A stretch of 40,171 bases of DNA from a virus: positions 1-40,171 of IMG/VR virus record IMGVR_UViG_3300029922_000148; one strand, 5' to 3'. A model generated the notes under the pieces. The model saw only the letters and a list, made by a program, of their open reading frames with translations. It did not search any database and was not told the origin of the DNA. Shown piece by piece: positions 2,060-40,171 of the stretch (positions within the stretch are counted from its first letter, which is position 1; each line of letters starts with the position of its first letter). Made by a program: the position numbers and the translations under genes.

Positions 2060-2752
2060 TTAGGATTGAACGGCTGGCGTAGCTGGATTCTGCTTGGCAA
2101 GCTGAGTAATCAAATTCGGCGTTTGGATCAGCACCGCCCATGTCTCCTTGTAATTAAAGACGTTGCCCTTTTGCGTCGAGGTAAACGAGGTGCAGACCGC
2201 GTACATTTGATAGACCCATGTGCCGGTTATCACGTAACCGGGTTGCTGATTTCCCGGCCCTGGATTCGGATAAAAATCCATGATCGTTATTGTTACCGGA
2301 TTGGCTGTGCTGTTCGTCTGATATTGCGGCGTGACGAAAACTTGCGACGTGCAGTATCGATAGGTGATGGTGGGACAAAAATAATTGACCGTGAAGGTGC
2401 CGTCTATTGAGGCCGATGTTCCAAGGCTCGCGCTGCGCGGCTCCCAAACAATATCGGACAACAAATCAACCGGGTTGTAGGGATCAAGATAGCCATCGGG
2501 ATCGCCATAATAAATAAGCTTCACCTTGGCTGTAGGCCCGTCTTCCGTCGCAATCTTCTGATCTAGCACCATATTTCGATACTCATAATCAGTTGACTGC
2601 CCGGTCACGTATTGCGCCAGAAAAGCCGAGAGATATGTAACGTTGCCCTCGAATGGCCGCGTAAGTTGCGAAGCTTCGCCGCGCTTGAAGACGACAACCG
2701 CGCCGGGAACTTCCTCAATTTGCGTGTCTCCAACATAAATAGGCGTGCTCAT
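2060..2752 (-). CDS. Hypothetical minor tail protein (230 aa)
   Basis: Unrecognised protein directly after the tape measure gene, with an ATGA overlap. It starts MSTPIYVGDTQIEEVPGAVV and is rich in Tyr, Thr, Pro and Val throughout, with repeated short beta-like segments and four scattered Cys residues. In phages with lambda-like order this slot holds distal-tail or minor tail proteins, so a minor tail role is likely, but no family motif was seen. Confidence 0.7.
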   Translation of the reverse strand: MSTPIYVGDTQIEEVPGAVVVFKRGEASQLTRPFEGNVTYLSAFLAQYVTGQSTDYEYRNMVLDQKIATEDGPTAKVKLIYYGDPDGYLDPYNPVDLLSDIVWEPRSASLGTSASIDGTFTVNYFCPTITYRYCTSQVFVTPQYQTNSTANPVTITIMDFYPNPGPGNQQPGYVITGTWVYQMYAVCTSFTSTQKGNVFNYKETWAVLIQTPNLITQLAKQNPATPAVQS

Positions 2753-4659
2753 GATGGGGCGGTAATATCGGTAAGCGTGTTATGAATCGAGCCGAGAATC
2801 ATGTTTGTTTGCGCGGTGTTTTGCTCAACGGTGTGCTGCGGCTCCATGAGCCTACCGGCGCGGCGCGACATTCCGCCTTCGATGGAAACCGGGCCTTGCT
2901 CAAACGCATGAACTCCTTGCCACCCTCCACCGCCCATGTGAATCCCGGTGATTTCCTTGCCAGCGCCAAATGCGAGTCCAGGATTCTGTCCGCCCCCAGA
3001 TGGCGGCGCTTCGACCGAATTGGCGGTTCCTTCGCCCTTAATCGCTTTGTTCAGACTTGAGATTAGATCAGAAAGTTTTTTGGAATCGTCGCCAAGCACA
3101 TTAATCGGAGCGGACGCCTTAATATCAGAAAGGAATTGTTGGAAGGTCGAGTTGACCGCGCCCGCTATATCGCTCTTCCCCAAAGCAGTCTCCCCTTTTC
3201 CCATTTCAGCTTCGCCGCCCGCCATTTCTGAAAACAAGTTTTTTTCGCCCAGAGATTTTTTGAGATCGGCTTGTCCCTGATCCAAAGTGCTTTTGCCCGT
3301 AAAATCAAATCCCAGAATCCCGGATAGCGCCGATATATTTCCCGATGCTTGAGCAGCGGCCACTGCGGCATTTACGGGATTTTTTTCTCCGTCTTTCGCA
3401 TATTCGTAAAGCTCTCCCGCTTGCTCTAAAAGACCGGGGATTTTGGAAAAAATGCCAGCAATCTCCCTGCCGAGTGAAAACGCTGAATTCATAAGAACAC
3501 TGCCAAGTACCTCGCCAAAATTGAAAGCGATTTCGATCAAGCCCTCCTGAAAAACAGTGAAGCCGCCAAGAGCTACCTCTGCGATGCCTTTCCAAAAATC
3601 GGTGTTCGCCAAAATGGCGATGCTTTCAGCAATTTTACCGCCAAATTCCTCGGCTTGTCCCAAAAGCAATTCGCCCCATCCTAGAATGAGTCCGGGGCTG
3701 AAAACACCCAAAATAATATCGCCGATTCCATGAAAAGCCGCATAGAGTCCGCCCGCCAAGGTATTGACGGCTTTTTCAAATCCCACCGTTAGAGAAAGTC
3801 GCGTCAATTCAGAAAGTTTTCCGTCCTCAAATGCATTGTAAAAAACTCTCACCGCATCCGCCAGGGAGTTTCCTATTCGTTGCCCCCATGCGACGAAGTC
3901 GAAACTTTCAAATGCTTTCAGCACCGGCAAAATAACGCGGCCCAGAGGTTCAGCCAATCCCACAAAAAAGCCTTGAATTTTGATCCCCGAAACCTCCATG
4001 AGGCCCGCGATTTGTTGGAACGTGTCCGCATTCTGGGCAAGGATGTCCGCTTGCGCTCCCAGCGCGTTGGCCGCTTCCTCGCCAATGCCCTTGTCGCGAA
4101 AAAGTGAAAGCATCTCCGCACCTTGCTTGCCAAAAAGCTGCATGGCCACTTGCGCTCGCCGCGCCGGGTCTTCGATCCCCGCAATGCTCTGCCGTATCAA
4201 GTCGAATTGCGCTGCGGGATTCAAGCCGCGAAGCTCGTAAATGTTGATACCGAGTCGGGCGAATATGGTAGCCGCTTCGCCTCCCTTGTCCGCTGCATTC
4301 TCAATCGACCGCTGCATACGATTGATGGTCTGTCCAACCTCTTCCGCCTGTAACCCAGAAAGCTTGAATTCAGTTTGTAATTGAACCAAATCTTTTGTCG
4401 CGATGCCGGTGCGATCACTCAGATGCTCCAAATCTTTCGATAACTCGAATATGCCCTTCACTCCCTCGAAAGTCCGGTCAAGAGCCTCCTTGATCGATTC
4501 CACGCCGATAACGAGACCCGCGATTTCCGCGAGCGTTTCCCGCATCCGGTCTTTGAATTCGTCGGCGAACTCCTTAGCCGAGTCTATTCCTTCGCGCATG
4601 GAGCGTTGAAACTCCGCGCTATCGCCGGTTAATTTGGCCCTGAGTGTCGCTTCTGGCAT
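2749..4659 (-). CDS. Tail tape measure protein
   Basis: 636 residues. The N-terminal 220 residues are helical with heptad-like spacing, and the stretch around residues 80-190 (LSDRTGIATKDLVQLQTEFK, then AAQFDLIRQSIAG) matches the N-terminal domain of phage tape measure proteins (TP901/lambda H class). The middle (about 290-400) holds several long hydrophobic Gly/Ala-rich segments typical of the membrane-active part; the C-terminus is polar. The protein sets tail length and is ejected with the DNA. At the usual 0.15 nm per residue this implies a tail of roughly 95 nm, short for the class. The start codon follows the stop of the preceding gene directly (TAA then ATG), and the gene lies right after the frameshifted chaperone module, the canonical order. 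Confidence 0.9.
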   Translation of the reverse strand: MPEATLRAKLTGDSAEFQRSMREGIDSAKEFADEFKDRMRETLAEIAGLVIGVESIKEALDRTFEGVKGIFELSKDLEHLSDRTGIATKDLVQLQTEFKLSGLQAEEVGQTINRMQRSIENAADKGGEAATIFARLGINIYELRGLNPAAQFDLIRQSIAGIEDPARRAQVAMQLFGKQGAEMLSLFRDKGIGEEAANALGAQADILAQNADTFQQIAGLMEVSGIKIQGFFVGLAEPLGRVILPVLKAFESFDFVAWGQRIGNSLADAVRVFYNAFEDGKLSELTRLSLTVGFEKAVNTLAGGLYAAFHGIGDIILGVFSPGLILGWGELLLGQAEEFGGKIAESIAILANTDFWKGIAEVALGGFTVFQEGLIEIAFNFGEVLGSVLMNSAFSLGREIAGIFSKIPGLLEQAGELYEYAKDGEKNPVNAAVAAAQASGNISALSGILGFDFTGKSTLDQGQADLKKSLGEKNLFSEMAGGEAEMGKGETALGKSDIAGAVNSTFQQFLSDIKASAPINVLGDDSKKLSDLISSLNKAIKGEGTANSVEAPPSGGGQNPGLAFGAGKEITGIHMGGGGWQGVHAFEQGPVSIEGGMSRRAGRLMEPQHTVEQNTAQTNMILGSIHNTLTDITAPS

Positions 4660-7457: not shown

Positions 7458-7816
7458 AAAAATGGATCGGCGTTAAGGCTGTCTCCCCCTCGAAAGAGGG
7501 GGAGATGCGTTTGCCATGCCTAGCCACGCCTGGCCACGCCACGCCTAGCCGCGCCGAGCCTGGCCGTGCCGCGCAAAATCATTCCAAAATGGATCGGCGT
7601 TAAGGCTGTCTCCCCTCTTTCGAGGGGAGATGCGTTTGCCGCGCCTCGCCCTGCCTCGCCGAGCGTTGCCCTGCCTCGCCTTGCCAGACTTCTTTCGACT
7701 GTTTCCAATCGAAAGTATGTCTAGCCGAGCCGTGCCCTGCCTCGCCCCGCCGTGCCGCGCCTCGCCCTGCCGCGCCGAGCATTGCCACGCCGGACCGAGC
7801 ATTGGCTCTCCAAGAA
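7458..7816. repeat. Two hairpin-plus-GCCNN repeat modules in tandem
   Basis: No gene is supported here. Module 1 starts with AAAATGGATCGGCGTTAAGG at 7458, then a 10-bp stem hairpin (7482-7505, loop GAAA), then 12 pentanucleotides of the form GCCNN (7513-7572), then ATCATTCCAAAA. Module 2 repeats the same leader at 7586, a 9-bp hairpin (7609-7630, loop TTTC), ten NNGCC units (7636-7685), an imperfect stem-loop at 7686-7722 (AGAC and CTTTCGA arms), 18 further units in register (7722-7811) and again ATCATTCCAAAA. The last copy of that tail supplies the stop codon of the 156-aa gene. Translated frames across the array are repeat artefacts. Confidence 0.85.
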
Positions 7817-7817
7817 A

Positions 7818-8288
7818 TCATTCCAAAAGCTTCCTGTCCGCACCCTTCAATATCCTCTCGACCTGAGTTGAGCGTTTTGTGAGCGCGAGCCGGATTGCGA
7901 CTCGACTCAGCACCTTATCGTGCTTCCGCTTTTCTTCATCGGTCAACGCCGAAACATCCGTCATACTTCCGAGGATCACGGCGCGGCGAAATGAATCCAT
8001 CGCCTGCCGTTGATACCGCTCCATGACTTTGTGATTATCGCGAGCATGAAGGATTTGATAGCTCTCCCCATTTTGGCCGTAGCCGTTCAGGTAAAAGCCG
8101 TCTTGTTCCAACTCGCGACGGATGTCACTTATCGCGATTCCGAACGCCATCGAATCAGCATCGAAACGAAGTGTCTTTGCCAGCCATTCGACCGTAAAAA
8201 CTTTCTCGTGTTCGATGCCCTGTTCTCGCATTGCCTCAAGGCATGATTTCCACGCCGGAAGGACTTGAGGTTTAGATTCTGTTTCCAT
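7818..8288 (-). CDS. Hypothetical protein flanked by repeat arrays (156 aa)
   Basis: Unrecognised, soluble and helical; begins METESKPQVLPAWKSCLEAM. A segment near residues 31-80 (FTVEWLAKTLRFDADSMAFG ... IRRELEQDGFYLNG) resembles a winged-helix-like fold in spacing, but this is a weak impression. A good ribosome site (AAAGGAAAT) precedes the ATG. The gene stands alone, bounded by GCCNN repeat arrays on both sides, and its stop codon lies inside the conserved end of the repeat module (TTTTGGAATGA). This isolated, repeat-bounded setting in the tail operon looks like an added cassette. Confidence 0.7.
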   Translation of the reverse strand: METESKPQVLPAWKSCLEAMREQGIEHEKVFTVEWLAKTLRFDADSMAFGIAISDIRRELEQDGFYLNGYGQNGESYQILHARDNHKVMERYQRQAMDSFRRAVILGSMTDVSALTDEEKRKHDKVLSRVAIRLALTKRSTQVERILKGADRKLLE

Positions 8289-8309
8289 ATTTCCTTTCTA
8301 AAACTGATA

Positions 8310-8325
8310 CCGCCCTTTCGGGCGG
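8310..8325 (-). terminator. Possible terminator hairpin CCGCCC-loop-GGGCGG
   Basis: On the minus strand a 6-bp GC stem with a GAAA loop is followed by TATCAGTTTTAG, just upstream of the 156-aa gene's ribosome site. It could end transcription coming from the 195-aa gene and the repeat array. The T-run is short and displaced, so activity is uncertain. It shares the GAAA/TTTC loop of the nearby repeat hairpins. Confidence 0.35.
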
Positions 8326-8335
8326 CATTGTTGTT

Positions 8336-8520
8336 GCCAAGCGCCGCCGTGCCTAGCTCCGCTGGGCAACGCCGTGCATTTCCGCGCATTTCCGAGCCAT
8401 AAAATTCCTTCAAAAGCTGTCTCCCCTCTTTCGAGGGGAGTTGTTATTTGCCCCGCCTCGCCTGGCCACGCCATGCAATGCCACGCCGGACCGAGCCACT
8501 GCCAAGCCGGACCCAGCCTC
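8336..8520. repeat. Third hairpin-plus-GCCNN repeat module with a preceding array
   Basis: Positions 8336-8400 hold 13 degenerate 5-base units (GCCAA GCGCC GCCGT and so on). After AAAATTCCTTCAAAAGCTGT comes the perfect 8-bp hairpin CTCCCCTC-TTTC-GAGGGGAG (8421-8440), then about 14 NNGCC units (8448-8518), one carrying an extra base. The array begins immediately after the stop codon of the 195-aa gene. There is no coding evidence. Confidence 0.8.
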
Positions 8521-8524
8521 AAAA

Positions 8525-9112
8525 TTATTTCTCCACCTCCACGATGAATCGCCCAAACTTCGGACGCCAATCGCCAAGGCCAACAAGCGAACCTGCCTCT
8601 TGCATCGCTTTTTCGACCTGACTCGGATTCAGAATCGATTCGTCAAACTCGACCGCAAAAGAAATCGTCCAACCAGTCGGAACCATCGGGCGAACAGAAA
8701 TCACGCGCGATTGTTGGATTTTGACGCCTTTGCGAATTTGATACCGCTCGTCGGCGTAGATTTGATCTTTCGACTTTCCCTTGAGCGCGTGCTCAACCGG
8801 AATTTCAGGCTCGACACAAAAGAGCGCGGCGGCGAAATCTTTGCCGAGCCGGTTCTTTTTCGCGCCCTCCAAAATCGTACGTTCGATGTTGTCGGATGGA
8901 ATGTAAAATCCCTTAATGTCATCCGACCAATAAAGACCGCCCTCCCATTTCAGACGATCAAGTTTTTCGTAATCGTCATCCGTCATTTTCTTACTTCCCT
9001 TGGAAGTGATCGCCTTGCATTGGCGAACAAAGGGATTTGTGGGATCGGCCAAAAGGCCATTATGCATTATCAGCGGTCGAATTCCTGTCCATTTTGCGTT
9101 TAGCGTTTTCAA
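8525..9112 (-). CDS. Conserved-looking phage protein of unknown function (195 aa)
   Basis: Begins MKTLNAKWTGIRPLIMHNGL and ends with GLGDWRPKFGRFIVEVEK. The MHNG..ADP..P start and the Gly-rich GDWRPKFGRF end recall a small hypothetical family often seen in phages, but I cannot name it or its role. It is soluble and slightly basic. Its start lies inside the small 57-aa gene upstream (53-base overlap) and its stop abuts a GCCNN array. Confidence 0.75.
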   Translation of the reverse strand: MKTLNAKWTGIRPLIMHNGLLADPTNPFVRQCKAITSKGSKKMTDDDYEKLDRLKWEGGLYWSDDIKGFYIPSDNIERTILEGAKKNRLGKDFAAALFCVEPEIPVEHALKGKSKDQIYADERYQIRKGVKIQQSRVISVRPMVPTGWTISFAVEFDESILNPSQVEKAMQEAGSLVGLGDWRPKFGRFIVEVEK

Positions 9113-12702: not shown

Positions 12703-14697
12703 TTAGACGAGTGAGTTGGTGGAATAGCAGAACGAGCCGGGGTGCCGAATTCCGATGTCTGTGAAGTTGAAGATGACGATTCGGATTTCCTGTTGCGTGG
12801 CTAAGGTGTAGGGATCGACGATGACCTGCCAGCCTTCCCAATCGGCAATAACCAGGTCTTCCCAATTTCCGAAAACGCTCTTGTTGCCGTTCAGAGCCGT
12901 GTTGAGCTGGTTGGTGGCAAGCGCCCGGTAGCCGTTAATCGTTCCTTCGCCCTCCGAGGATTTGGAGGCATCAATCGGCGCTTCCCAAATGTAAATCGGG
13001 AAGGCTGAAGACGAAATCTTCGGAGTCTGCTTGAGAATGCCCCTGCCTTGAGCGGAGACGATATAAGCGAGAGCGCCAAAATCCGCATTGGCAGCGGCCA
13101 CGGTGGTTTCAAAACCAACCGCCTGCGCCCACGTGGGCGCGCCGGAAGTCCAGGATGTCGTGCCAACGCCCGTGGTATTGAAGATACCAATCGGCTGAGC
13201 GCCCCCAGACCCGGAATAAGCCGCGAGGTCTTTGGCCAGCGCAAGCTGCTTCATCAAATCCATGCGAACAAACGCCTCTGCGTCCAGGGTAGCCTGAGCG
13301 AGGAGGAGATTCGAGTAATTCGTGGTTGCGGCCAAACGGTGCGGCGTCAGCAAAAGCTGCTGCAAGGTCTGATCGCTTTCCGAGACAGCGGAAATTTCGG
13401 AAAGCCAATAAGCGGTCGAGGCAGCGGTTTGGCGCGGAATAGCAACGTTGTTGCGGAGACCTGCCATCGTGGTTGCGCCCGCATTGACCACCTGCATTTT
13501 GTTGCGGAGCAATTCAATGAGAGAAGAGCCGAGCACTTCCGTTTCCACGAATGCGCCGCCTTGCGAAAAGACGCCTGCTTGCATGTCGCGCGTCATGGCT
13601 TTGCGCTGCCAGCCTTCGCCCCGGAATTTGGAGCGAACCACGTCTTCCGGAATGCAAAATCCGAGCGGCCCTTCCAGGCCGCGACCGCTGCGCTTGAGGG
13701 CAGCTTCGCTGGCTTCCTTTTCAAGGCCGCTGAGAGAACCACGGCCCTTGTTGTCGGAAAGCTCGCGAATGGCCTTGAGGATGGAAAATTGCTGAGTCTC
13801 CCTGTCGTTCATGCCGATGATACCATCATGCATGGCGGCTGCCGGGATCGGCTTCGCGTTGGTCCGCTTTTCGATAATGATCTTGAGGAAATCATCGGCG
13901 GTCTTGGCGGGATCGGCAACGTAAGCGCGGGCTTGCTCGGCGAATTCGCCCGGGCTGTCCTTGCGCTCGTACTGCTTGGCGTATCCCAAAATGTCGGCCA
14001 CGCGAAGGCGATCCTTCTTGACCGTCTCGTCAACTCGCGTCTGGATTTCTTCCGGCGTGAGTGAAATTCCATTGCCGCCCGCACCGTCTGCGGTGAGTTG
14101 GCGTGAACGAGTTTGAGTGATCATGATTTTGGGTGCCTTTCGTTTTATCGGAACTGAAATTTGGGGTTGGGTTTGTAGGTTGCGGTTCGCGCCGACAGTG
14201 TGATCCGCCGGAATTGATTCGAGGGAAACTTCAATCGGCTCCCAGCGGCACCGATAATTCGGCACGCCTTCATCGTCTTCGGGGTCGTCCTCGTCCTGAT
14301 CCATGGAGTGGACTTGATAGCCAACGGAAGTTGCGCCTCGGATGCCTTCATCGACATCCTTCATGATTTCCTGGCCGCGCGTGCTGGAAGAAAAACGGAC
14401 TTGGCAGCGACCGACTTTCCCGTCGAGCCGGGCGGAATCAACGACGCCAACTTGATCTTTGGGATCATGGTGCATGAGCAACGGCGCGGAGCCGGAAGCT
14501 AGTCTGCCGATAATCACGCTATCGGTCGCGTGATCCAGAATTTCATTATAAATGTCGCCAGTCTCAGTTGTGCGGCGCACGGGCGTTTCGCTGGAAAACG
14601 ACATTGGAACCGTGCGCGTTTCCTTATCGACAGTTCCTTTGCGAACTTCACATTTGCGGTAAAGCGTCTGCGGAATTTTGATGCTGTCGGCTGTCAT
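12703..14697 (-). CDS. Prohead protease fused to HK97-fold major capsid protein (664 aa)
   Basis: One uninterrupted frame. Residues about 1-170 form a peptidase S78-type prohead protease: LLMHHDP gives the catalytic His (H76 or H77), GATSVGYQV the Ser (S124) and EPIEVSLESIPADH the third conserved segment. Residues about 220-340 are helical and charged like a delta (scaffold) domain. From about 350 the chain is a HK97-fold capsid protein: QGGAFVETEVLGSSLIELLR, the AIPRQTA strand, the long spine helix region with AYSGSGGAQPIGIFN, and a C-terminal IVIFNFTDIGIRHPGSF. The protease would cleave the delta domain and release itself. It is preceded by the conserved late element 31 nt upstream of the ATG. 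Confidence 0.92.
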   Translation of the reverse strand: MTADSIKIPQTLYRKCEVRKGTVDKETRTVPMSFSSETPVRRTTETGDIYNEILDHATDSVIIGRLASGSAPLLMHHDPKDQVGVVDSARLDGKVGRCQVRFSSSTRGQEIMKDVDEGIRGATSVGYQVHSMDQDEDDPEDDEGVPNYRCRWEPIEVSLESIPADHTVGANRNLQTQPQISVPIKRKAPKIMITQTRSRQLTADGAGGNGISLTPEEIQTRVDETVKKDRLRVADILGYAKQYERKDSPGEFAEQARAYVADPAKTADDFLKIIIEKRTNAKPIPAAAMHDGIIGMNDRETQQFSILKAIRELSDNKGRGSLSGLEKEASEAALKRSGRGLEGPLGFCIPEDVVRSKFRGEGWQRKAMTRDMQAGVFSQGGAFVETEVLGSSLIELLRNKMQVVNAGATTMAGLRNNVAIPRQTAASTAYWLSEISAVSESDQTLQQLLLTPHRLAATTNYSNLLLAQATLDAEAFVRMDLMKQLALAKDLAAYSGSGGAQPIGIFNTTGVGTTSWTSGAPTWAQAVGFETTVAAANADFGALAYIVSAQGRGILKQTPKISSSAFPIYIWEAPIDASKSSEGEGTINGYRALATNQLNTALNGNKSVFGNWEDLVIADWEGWQVIVDPYTLATQQEIRIVIFNFTDIGIRHPGSFCYSTNSLV

Positions 14698-28808: not shown

Positions 28809-29531
28809 TTACTCCTTCGCGGCGAGCATGCGGTCCACGAGGTCAAGAGCGCTGACCTGCTGGTCAGCGCGAATCTTACGAGCCACCGCCGCCCCCTCCG
28901 CCTCCGCCGCCGCCTCCGCCACCGCCACCACCGTCGCCGCCACCTCCGCCACCGCCGCCCCCTCCGCCACCGCCACCTCCGCCACCGCCGTCGCCGCCAC
29001 CGCCGTCGCCGTCGCCGTCGCCGCCGCCGCCGTCGCCACCGCCCAATAGCTATACGGCCATCCTGATTTGCGGCGCGCGAAGCGCGCCGCCTCAAGAGCT
29101 TTGTCCAGAACAGGTCGAGCGATGGCGAGGGTGTCGAGATCGGTGATTGGCGCGATCTTGCTCAAGGCCGTCGCATGCGCGGCGAGCTTCGCGGCCCGAA
29201 GGGCAATCGGTACGGCGACGCGGATCGACCAATCCAACGCCAGGTAGGCGCGAATGCGCTCGACTTTCGGCGTGCTCTTGCTGCCGATTAGAGGCACGAT
29301 AAAGCGCTTGAGTTGCTGGCGCTCGGTGTCGTTCATTTGGTCGTTCAAGCGGCGAAGCATGGCGGAGACGACCGGGCAAGCGCACTCGGGGTGATCGCTG
29401 TGAGATTCCTTCGCCAGGAAGGCGACGGCTTCCATGATGCACAATCCTTTGTCGGGGCTGGAATGACTGCCTTTGGCAAGGCAGAGGGTTTCGAGGTTGA
29501 GCGGGGATTCGATTTTTGGGGGGGTTTTCAT
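28809..29531 (-). CDS. Imm5-like alanine-repeat protein (240 aa)
   Basis: Begins MKTPPKIESPLNLETLCLAK (another ATG lies at 29558). Residues to about 150 are a conserved helical domain (LCIMEAVAFLAKESHSDHPE, then CPVVSAMLRRLNDQM and RQQLKRFIVPLIGS) well known in hypothetical phage and actinobacterial proteins and related to predicted Imm5 immunity proteins. Then follows an Ala/Val/Thr/Glu tract (about 172-224) and a terminal helix (SALDLVDRMLAAKE). The tract is encoded by a GCC-type triplet repeat. In relatives this part contains Ala-Ala-(Tyr/Asp) repeats, so here it seems expanded or simplified. Role unknown. Confidence 0.7.
   Translation of the reverse strand: MKTPPKIESPLNLETLCLAKGSHSSPDKGLCIMEAVAFLAKESHSDHPECACPVVSAMLRRLNDQMNDTERQQLKRFIVPLIGSKSTPKVERIRAYLALDWSIRVAVPIALRAAKLAAHATALSKIAPITDLDTLAIARPVLDKALEAARFARRKSGWPYSYWAVATAAAATATATAVAATAVAEVAVAEGAAVAEVAATVVAVAEAAAEAEGAAVARKIRADQQVSALDLVDRMLAAKE
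28882..29044. repeat. GCC/GTC/CCG trinucleotide microsatellite within the Imm5-like gene
   Basis: About 160 bases made almost solely of CCGCC-, CCACC- and GTCGCC-type triplets on the plus strand (GGC/GGT/GGA/GAC on the minus strand). It codes for the Ala/Val/Thr/Glu tract. All frames are open, which yields an artefactual Arg/Trp-rich ORF. It is a candidate for slippage-driven length variation. Confidence 0.85.
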
Positions 29532-38359: not shown

Positions 38360-39076
38360 TTAAATTTCCTCCGCAGCCCTAGCCTCGACAAAGGCCATGA
38401 TCGCGTCTTCCGGGGCATTTGAATCGAATCTAGGCAAAGGCGCTCCCGGCCTGCTCGCCATCAAAATCAGTCGCGCGGCTGGACCCGTTCCGATTTCTGC
38501 TTCAAGTTCCTTGCCCATCGGAGCCTTCGTCACCGTCCAGCCCGCAATGCAATGCGTCGTTTCACAGGTATGCCATGTTTTCATTTTGAGAGCACAGCCA
38601 GGAGAATTAATTGCCGCAAGTAAATTTGTGTAGGGCTTTTTCCACTCGTATTTTTTGAGGAGCTTGGCGATGGAAGGATATTCGCGAGAAAGCCATCCGA
38701 TTTGATCGGGAGAAAGCCATCCGATTTGATCGGGAGAAAGCCATCCGATTTGAGCGCGAGAAAGCCATCCGATTTGATCGGGAGAAAGCCCTCCGATTTG
38801 ATCGGGAGAAAGCCCTCCGATTTGAGCGCGAGAAAGCCATCCGATTTGATCGGGAGAAAGCCATCCGATTTGATCGGGAGAAAGCCATCCGATTTGATCG
38901 GGAGAAAGCCCTCCGATTTGAGCGCGAGAAAGCCATCCGATTTGATCGGGAGAAAGCCATCCGATTTGATCGGGAGAAAGCCCTCCGATTTGAGCGCGAG
39001 AAAGCCATCCGATTTGAGCGCGAGAAAGCGACGACGGGCAAGTAGCTTCTAAAATGAGTTGGTCTTTGGTTTTCAT
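38360..39076 (-). CDS. Protein with fourteen 8-residue LS(P/R)(D/A)QIG repeats (238 aa)
   Basis: Starts at ATG 39076 (MKTKDQLILEATCPSSLS). Residues about 20-131 are fourteen octads of the form IG(W/G)L-S(PD/RA)Q. The C-terminal domain (NSPGCALKMKTWHTCETTHC IAGWTV ... ARLILMASRPG) is a phage family with a CxxxHCxAGW motif. The repeats resemble those in which LTPEQ-like units form a helical or solenoid surface. Each octad varies at only two places, which points to copy shuffling. Function unknown. Confidence 0.7.
   Translation of the reverse strand: MKTKDQLILEATCPSSLSRAQIGWLSRAQIGGLSPDQIGWLSPDQIGWLSRAQIGGLSPDQIGWLSPDQIGWLSPDQIGWLSRAQIGGLSPDQIGGLSPDQIGWLSRAQIGWLSPDQIGWLSPDQIGWLSREYPSIAKLLKKYEWKKPYTNLLAAINSPGCALKMKTWHTCETTHCIAGWTVTKAPMGKELEAEIGTGPAARLILMASRPGAPLPRFDSNAPEDAIMAFVEARAAEEI
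38686..39021. repeat. 24-bp tandem repeat, 14 copies
   Basis: Unit on the plus strand: GAGAAAGCC, then A or C, TCCGATTTGA, then TCGG or GCGC. No stop codon occurs in any frame on either strand, which produces artefactual ORFs. The two variable sites occur in different combinations along the array. Confidence 0.9.
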
Positions 39077-39697: not shown

Positions 39698-40171
39698 TTA
39701 TTTCAGTAAAGATTCAAACTCGTCTATCCAGCCAACAACGATTTTGGAAATCTGATTCGTTTCCGGCGTGTCCCCGGTTTTAATTCCCATAAAAAAGCAT
39801 TCGATTGGCCTGGTTGAATCGGGTTTTAGCGCCTTAATTTCGTCATATTTACAATGCTTGATATTAGCTATCGTGCCCACCAAGCAAGCACACTCACCTT
39901 CATAAACCGAGCCGTCTACTTTCCCTTCGACCAAATGCTTGCGAAGTTCAGGGATTTCATGCCGTGCCCGAATCAGTACGTCCCAAAAATCGTTCCTAAT
40001 GGAATCGAGGCTGGCACCGTCGAGGTTGGCACCGACGAGGCTGGCACCGTCGAGGTTGGCACGGACGAGGTTGGCACCGACGAGGCTGGCACCGTCGAGG
40101 TTGGCACCGACGAGGTTGGCACCGACGAGGTAGGCACCGTCGAGGTTGGCACCGTCGAGGCTGGCACCGTC
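39698..40171 (-). CDS. Pentapeptide-repeat protein, N-terminus beyond right edge
   Basis: The frame is open from the right edge to the TAA at 39700-39698 (157 codons visible). It starts with pentapeptide repeats [15 protein letters not shown] and so on (about 11 units visible), forming a right-handed beta-helix. The C-terminal domain [20 protein letters not shown], then [20 protein letters not shown] and [17 protein letters not shown], belongs to a phage family often joined to such repeats. The start lies outside the window, and ORFs in other frames across the repeats are shadows. Confidence 0.8.

Follow-up and report, generated by a model that had tools for sequence, protein, structure and literature searches.

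A probable type II-like VIPR locus with five guide-type repeat arrays in an uncultivated tailed phage

Genes and repeat arrays at the locus

The DNA analysed here (the window) spans one entire virus record of IMG/VR, 40,171 bp long. Between its head genes (major head protein, 12703–14697) and its tape measure gene (2749–4659) lies a locus that, read along the minus strand (which also codes for the surrounding operon), runs in the order vipr, guide A with its tail, guide B with a hairpin, a vap1-like gene, guide C1, a GNRA stem-loop, guide C2 with its tail and guide D with its tail (Table 1). We read five guides in it (A, B, C1, C2 and D). On this strand, the arrays are (GGC-NN)n tracts that follow stop codons, the tract of guide A beginning 7 nt past that of vipr, and on the 3′ side of each stands a hairpin cap, whose loop is GAAA in four of the five hairpins.

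Table 1 Features of the locus, with positions in the window
Feature	Position	Strand	Evidence
vipr gene, 195 aa, RAMP/Cas7-like, predicted guide-RNA-binding; phrog_4652	8525..9112	-	Profile, single-sequence and fold matches
vrRNA A repeat tract, ~14 units, one 3-nt spacer, one TGC unit	8448..8518 (plus-strand GCCNN tract 8450-8518)	-	Sequence
vrRNA A 3′ tail, GAAA-loop hairpin 8421-8440, then ACAGC	8412..8447	-	Fold z = -2.35
vrRNA B repeat tract, 13 units, relaxed GGY (GGC, GGA, TGC, AGC, CGC)	8334..8398	-	Sequence
GAAA-loop hairpin behind vrRNA B, upstream of vap1 start	8307..8328	-	Fold z = -1.56 (weak)
vap1-like accessory gene, 156 aa, probable N-terminal winged helix	7818..8288	-	Vap1 profile, L015 homologue, AF2
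vrRNA C1 repeat tract, ~15-18 units	7722..7811 (plus-strand GCCNN tract 7724-7800)	-	Sequence
GNRA-loop (GAAA) stem-loop splitting array C in two	7686..7721	-	Fold z = -6.1
vrRNA C2 repeat tract, 10 units, one CGC	7636..7685 (plus-strand GCCNN tract 7638-7687)	-	Sequence
vrRNA C2 3′ tail, hairpin 7610-7629, nearly the same as D tail	7586..7635	-	Fold z = -4.5
vrRNA D repeat tract, 12 perfect GGC/NN units	7511..7570 (plus-strand GCCNN tract 7513-7572)	-	Sequence
vrRNA D 3′ tail, hairpin 7483-7504	7462..7510	-	Fold z = -4.1

The arrays, which read GCCNN on the plus strand, are real and of strict period, as the first-pass annotation of this DNA had proposed, and they far exceed chance: region 7458–8520 holds a longest perfect run of 12 units and 27 in-phase triples, whereas 1,000 dinucleotide shuffles of that sequence never gave a run of more than 4, and triples averaged 0.06. 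The rest of the window (39 kb, both strands) contained no in-phase GCCNN triple. An assembly artefact, raised in the same annotation, is argued against by a second IMG/VR record (54,266 bp) that carries the same DNA at 100% identity over 1,204 bp, the two samples possibly being related.

Hypervariable NN beside a fixed GGY is the pattern of the arrays; the NN series of guide D reads AC CA TC GC TA GT GT CA GT TA AT AA. The C2 and D tails are identical except for the stem length and loop of the hairpin, and fold far better than shuffles. Three modules of common leader, hairpin and array had initially been described here. Perfect hairpins with 4-base loops do occur in all three (the A, C2 and D tails), but an identical 30-base stretch is found in only two of them (7459–7488 and 7586–7615); a fourth module (8310–8398, in which the units are relaxed and a separate hairpin is present) and the hairpin within the middle array at 7686–7721 had been missed; and the order was backwards, the ‘leader plus hairpin’ being the 3′ tail and the ‘ATTCCAAAA end’ the 5′ start. 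Similarly, the arrays directly follow stop codons on the minus strand but not on the strand originally read. Strictly speaking, the remark that a period of five excludes coding for a repeat protein is inaccurate, as a 5-base repeat gives a 5-codon cycle, but the point is immaterial here. An Rfam search returned nothing with E < 0.7, and no DNA similarity to named phages was found.

Other repeats occur elsewhere in the window. A 24-bp tandem repeat at 38682–39029 encodes the octapeptide LSPDQIGW/LSRAQIGW in a minus-strand protein, and 15-bp tandem repeats at 40005–40171, coding a five-residue repeat, run off the contig end, which may have been cut at 40171 by this repeat. At 28882–29043, a minus-strand open reading frame contains an alanine-rich GCC low-complexity tract of period 3, not 5, unrelated to the arrays.

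The vipr and vap1-like genes

VIPR is a CRISPR-related phage system, reported in an April 2026 preprint from the Doudna lab and proposed as a possible forerunner of CRISPR (PMC13142463). Its protein, Vipr, is an early-branching RAMP; its vrRNAs consist of 9–16 GGY/NN units and a structured 3′ tail, and their NN pairs specify double-stranded DNA while skipping single bases, which usually fall at the codon wobble position; and VIPR loci carry vap accessory genes and have a role in phage–phage conflict (PMC13142463).

The product of the 8525–9112 gene matched PDB 36pp, ‘SUSP1 Vipr protein’, with E = 1.4e-43 in a profile search and 3.1e-32 from the single sequence. Its AlphaFold2 model (pLDDT 97.5) found as best solved folds in Foldseek the Csm3-type RAMP subunits of Csm complexes (E = 1.5e-5), and its C-terminus, G-x-G-D-W-R-P-x-x-G-R-F, is common to it and to the gene that recurs beside arrays elsewhere. 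By homology and predicted fold, this protein is a member of the Vipr family and a RAMP homologue.

Between the arrays, the gene at 7818–8288, previously noted only as an isolated gene, is by profile similarity a homologue of the Vap1 accessory protein: its product entered a profile grown from phage wV8 Vap1, with E = 3.3e-4 prior to inclusion, and another array locus (L015) has a homologue at the same position. Its AlphaFold2 model, of modest confidence, has a winged-helix-like N-terminus with weak MarR-like matches. Library searches with this product gave no Cas homologue. Pfam, NCBIfam and PADLOC hold no family for Vipr or Vap, and PHROGs only phrog_4652 (for Vipr), where its function is listed as unknown.

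Vipr resembles the RAMPs of class 1 CRISPR systems (Cas7/Csm3) in its RRM-like fold and Gly-rich C-terminal loop. The locus differs from those systems in having one small protein, a noncontiguous guide code and no adaptation genes; no CRISPR repeats or spacers were found in it, and it does not qualify as CRISPR–Cas class 1.

A triplet-plus-two periodicity in messenger RNA is also known from TRAP, a ring protein that binds a (G/U)AGNN × 11 leader RNA next to its own gene and controls translation. Autoregulation of this kind, with NN as meaningless spacers, would account for the geometry, and arrays begin a few nucleotides past the vipr stop codon or end just ahead of an SD sequence. We nevertheless consider it very improbable, since the triplet is another one, the protein is unrelated to TRAP and is a RAMP/Vipr homologue, and unit number varies here from 10 to ~18. 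Moreover, NN has no coding role in TRAP. For the SUSP1 Vipr homologue, NN is the target code, activity being lost when NN is changed with the GGY triplets kept (PMC13142463).

Arrays and Vipr in viral and bacterial genomes

As the first-pass annotation had suggested, we searched phage and prokaryote genomes for the array, using the pattern and not the sequence. (GCCNN)7GCC retrieved at least 120 stretches from IMG/VR, nearly all with varied NN among the matches listed; GCCNN × 10 in one genome per prokaryote species gave, among the matches listed, mostly single-unit repeats or 15-nt cycles and ~7–10 with varied NN. The variable-NN form is therefore phage-associated. Where a locus held two or more arrays, these all lay on one strand (48 of 48 loci), with flanking genes mostly opposite to the GCCNN strand, so that the transcript would be (GGCNN)n; at array loci, this tract usually begins directly behind a stop codon.

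A profile grown from the 8525–9112 gene detected Vipr homologues in 91 of 131 array loci and in none of 150 controls (40 viral loci of other kinds and 110 genome loci with simple repeats), and the nearest array was in the Vipr sense in 90 of 92 cases. When eight bacterial genomes were checked in full, Vipr was present in five of the six with variable-NN arrays and in neither of the other two. Among phage loci read as yardsticks, those of SUSP1, wV8, LittleE, Medea1 and LESphi2 have GGY/NN arrays running in the vipr sense; in phiHSIC there is a Vipr homologue and no array above the threshold used.

Mobile palindromic (REP/MITE-like) elements or recombination sites had been among the natures first proposed for the arrays, alongside RNA structures. 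Hairpins, several copies and the identical 30-nt ends of two modules would suit such elements, but the fixed orientation, the single partner gene family, NN that is hypervariable with GGY fixed, and the lack of copies elsewhere in the window make this reading scarcely credible. RNA structures came close, as the arrays are better explained as putative guide RNAs with hairpin tails.

Several further observations concern the distribution of these elements. Some 20 IMG/VR records have variable GGC/NN arrays with no Vipr detectable on the record (L007, L011 (105 kb), L017, L034, L045, L056, L077, L093, L105, L107 and others); candidate readings are that they are fragments, have divergent Viprs or are solo guide arrays acting in trans. 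A search for a gene common to these loci clustered only array translations. At array loci (for example, L018, L020 and L100), apart from the 2-nt spacers, in-phase blocks are separated by a single nucleotide (GGCaGGC) in 79 instances, compared with 6 for 3 nt; the 1-nt spacing may mark guide boundaries or staggered arrays. In LittleE (L311), phiHSIC (L312) and Medea1 (L313), the vipr homologue is likewise surrounded by head or tail genes, as if repeatedly inserted there, and in two of the three it runs against the late operon. Six Azospirillum and Bradyrhizobium plasmids (matches H51–H56) carry Vipr homologues at 31–36% identity. In the host search, Vipr matches were found in 3 of 289 genomes from the phylum to which an Opitutus MAG belongs and in 0 of 297 from that of a Solibacteraceae MAG, and the portal protein had at most 37% identity to matches in the same 289 genomes.

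Assignment to VIPR and predicted guide function

At this locus we find a Vipr homologue, variable-NN GGY tracts, a vipr-sense array beside vipr, structured 3′ tails and a vap gene. Array anatomy, strand, association with a Vipr gene, the homology of both proteins and the hairpin tails are all directly supported here, and this tailed phage almost certainly carries a VIPR locus of a type II-like kind. Some units that are not GGY, the array-bearing records without detectable Vipr, and the target searches and NN composition described below weigh against this assignment. The fit to type II is judged from the homology of the accessory gene to Vap1 and from the five guides, formal type criteria aside.

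The closest comparison is SUSP1 VIPR (type II; PMC13142463, PDB 36pp), with which the locus shares a phage-borne Vipr homologue (~35% identity), a Vap1-type gene and several GGY/NN tracts of roughly 9–16 units with structured 3′ tails, all in the vipr sense. Units are mostly GGC here and mostly GGT in SUSP1; the tail here is a GC-rich, mostly GAAA-loop hairpin (compared at the hairpin level); vipr and vap1 are separated here by guides A and B, whereas the SUSP1 guides flank an adjacent vipr–vap1 pair; and the locus stands between head and tail genes, that of SUSP1 beside DNA ligase. Peculiar to the present locus are this placement of guides A and B, a guide with relaxed GGY and a GNRA hairpin between two guides.

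For expression, guide loading, the 1-nt skip code and interference, we infer from the published system (PMC13142463) how the locus would work. The minus strand would be transcribed into vrRNAs of alternating GGC and NN, each with a 3′ hairpin tail; Vipr would coat the tract of repeats, with a subunit on every 5-nt unit; and the NN pairs would base-pair with double-stranded DNA as NNxNNxNN, with Vap1 as a putative DNA-binding helper. The outcome may be repression of a gene of a competing phage or satellite. Under the 1-nt skip rule, the predicted target of guide D is ACNCANTCNGCNTANGTNGTNCANGTNTANAT.

Six scans of IMG/VR with one-base-skip seeds of 8 or 9 units (two each for D and C1, one each for B and A) yielded no natural target for guides A, B, C1 or D, matches being absent or extended at chance level. 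Cross-searching 210 guides in 2.1 Mb, a very small set, gave no excess of skip 1 over skips 0, 2 and 3. NN composition fitted codon positions 1–2 better than 2–3 or 3–1, and a uniform model slightly better still. Given these three results, the targeting rule used here is taken from PMC13142463.

The lack of a target in the seed scans would also suit a decayed VIPR remnant, with vipr intact and guide B (perhaps also A and C1) degenerating and nonfunctional, as would the non-GGY units in A, B, C1 and C2 and the 3-nt spacer in A. We regard such decay as unlikely: vipr, vap1 and guide D are intact, and in guide B the middle G is retained in every one of the 13 units. Units other than GGY are present in the SUSP1 guides too, and across 96 loci they make up 7% of the 2,565 in-phase units, so the relaxation of guide B is unusual in degree, not in kind. 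Tentatively, and with more doubt than confidence, we suggest that guide B (GGY relaxed to NGC/GGA) and the GNRA-split C1–C2 pair might be working guides that widen the vrRNA rule and that, beyond the window, arrays lacking Vipr might act in trans or as decoys.

As a VIPR locus, this region adds to the system an uncultivated phage, seen only in metagenomes, with five guides that form a compact and readable set. Searching IMG/VR with a plain DNA pattern for variable GGY/NN arrays brings up VIPR loci by the dozen, and the targets of many such guides could reveal conflicts among environmental phages, that is, who fights whom.
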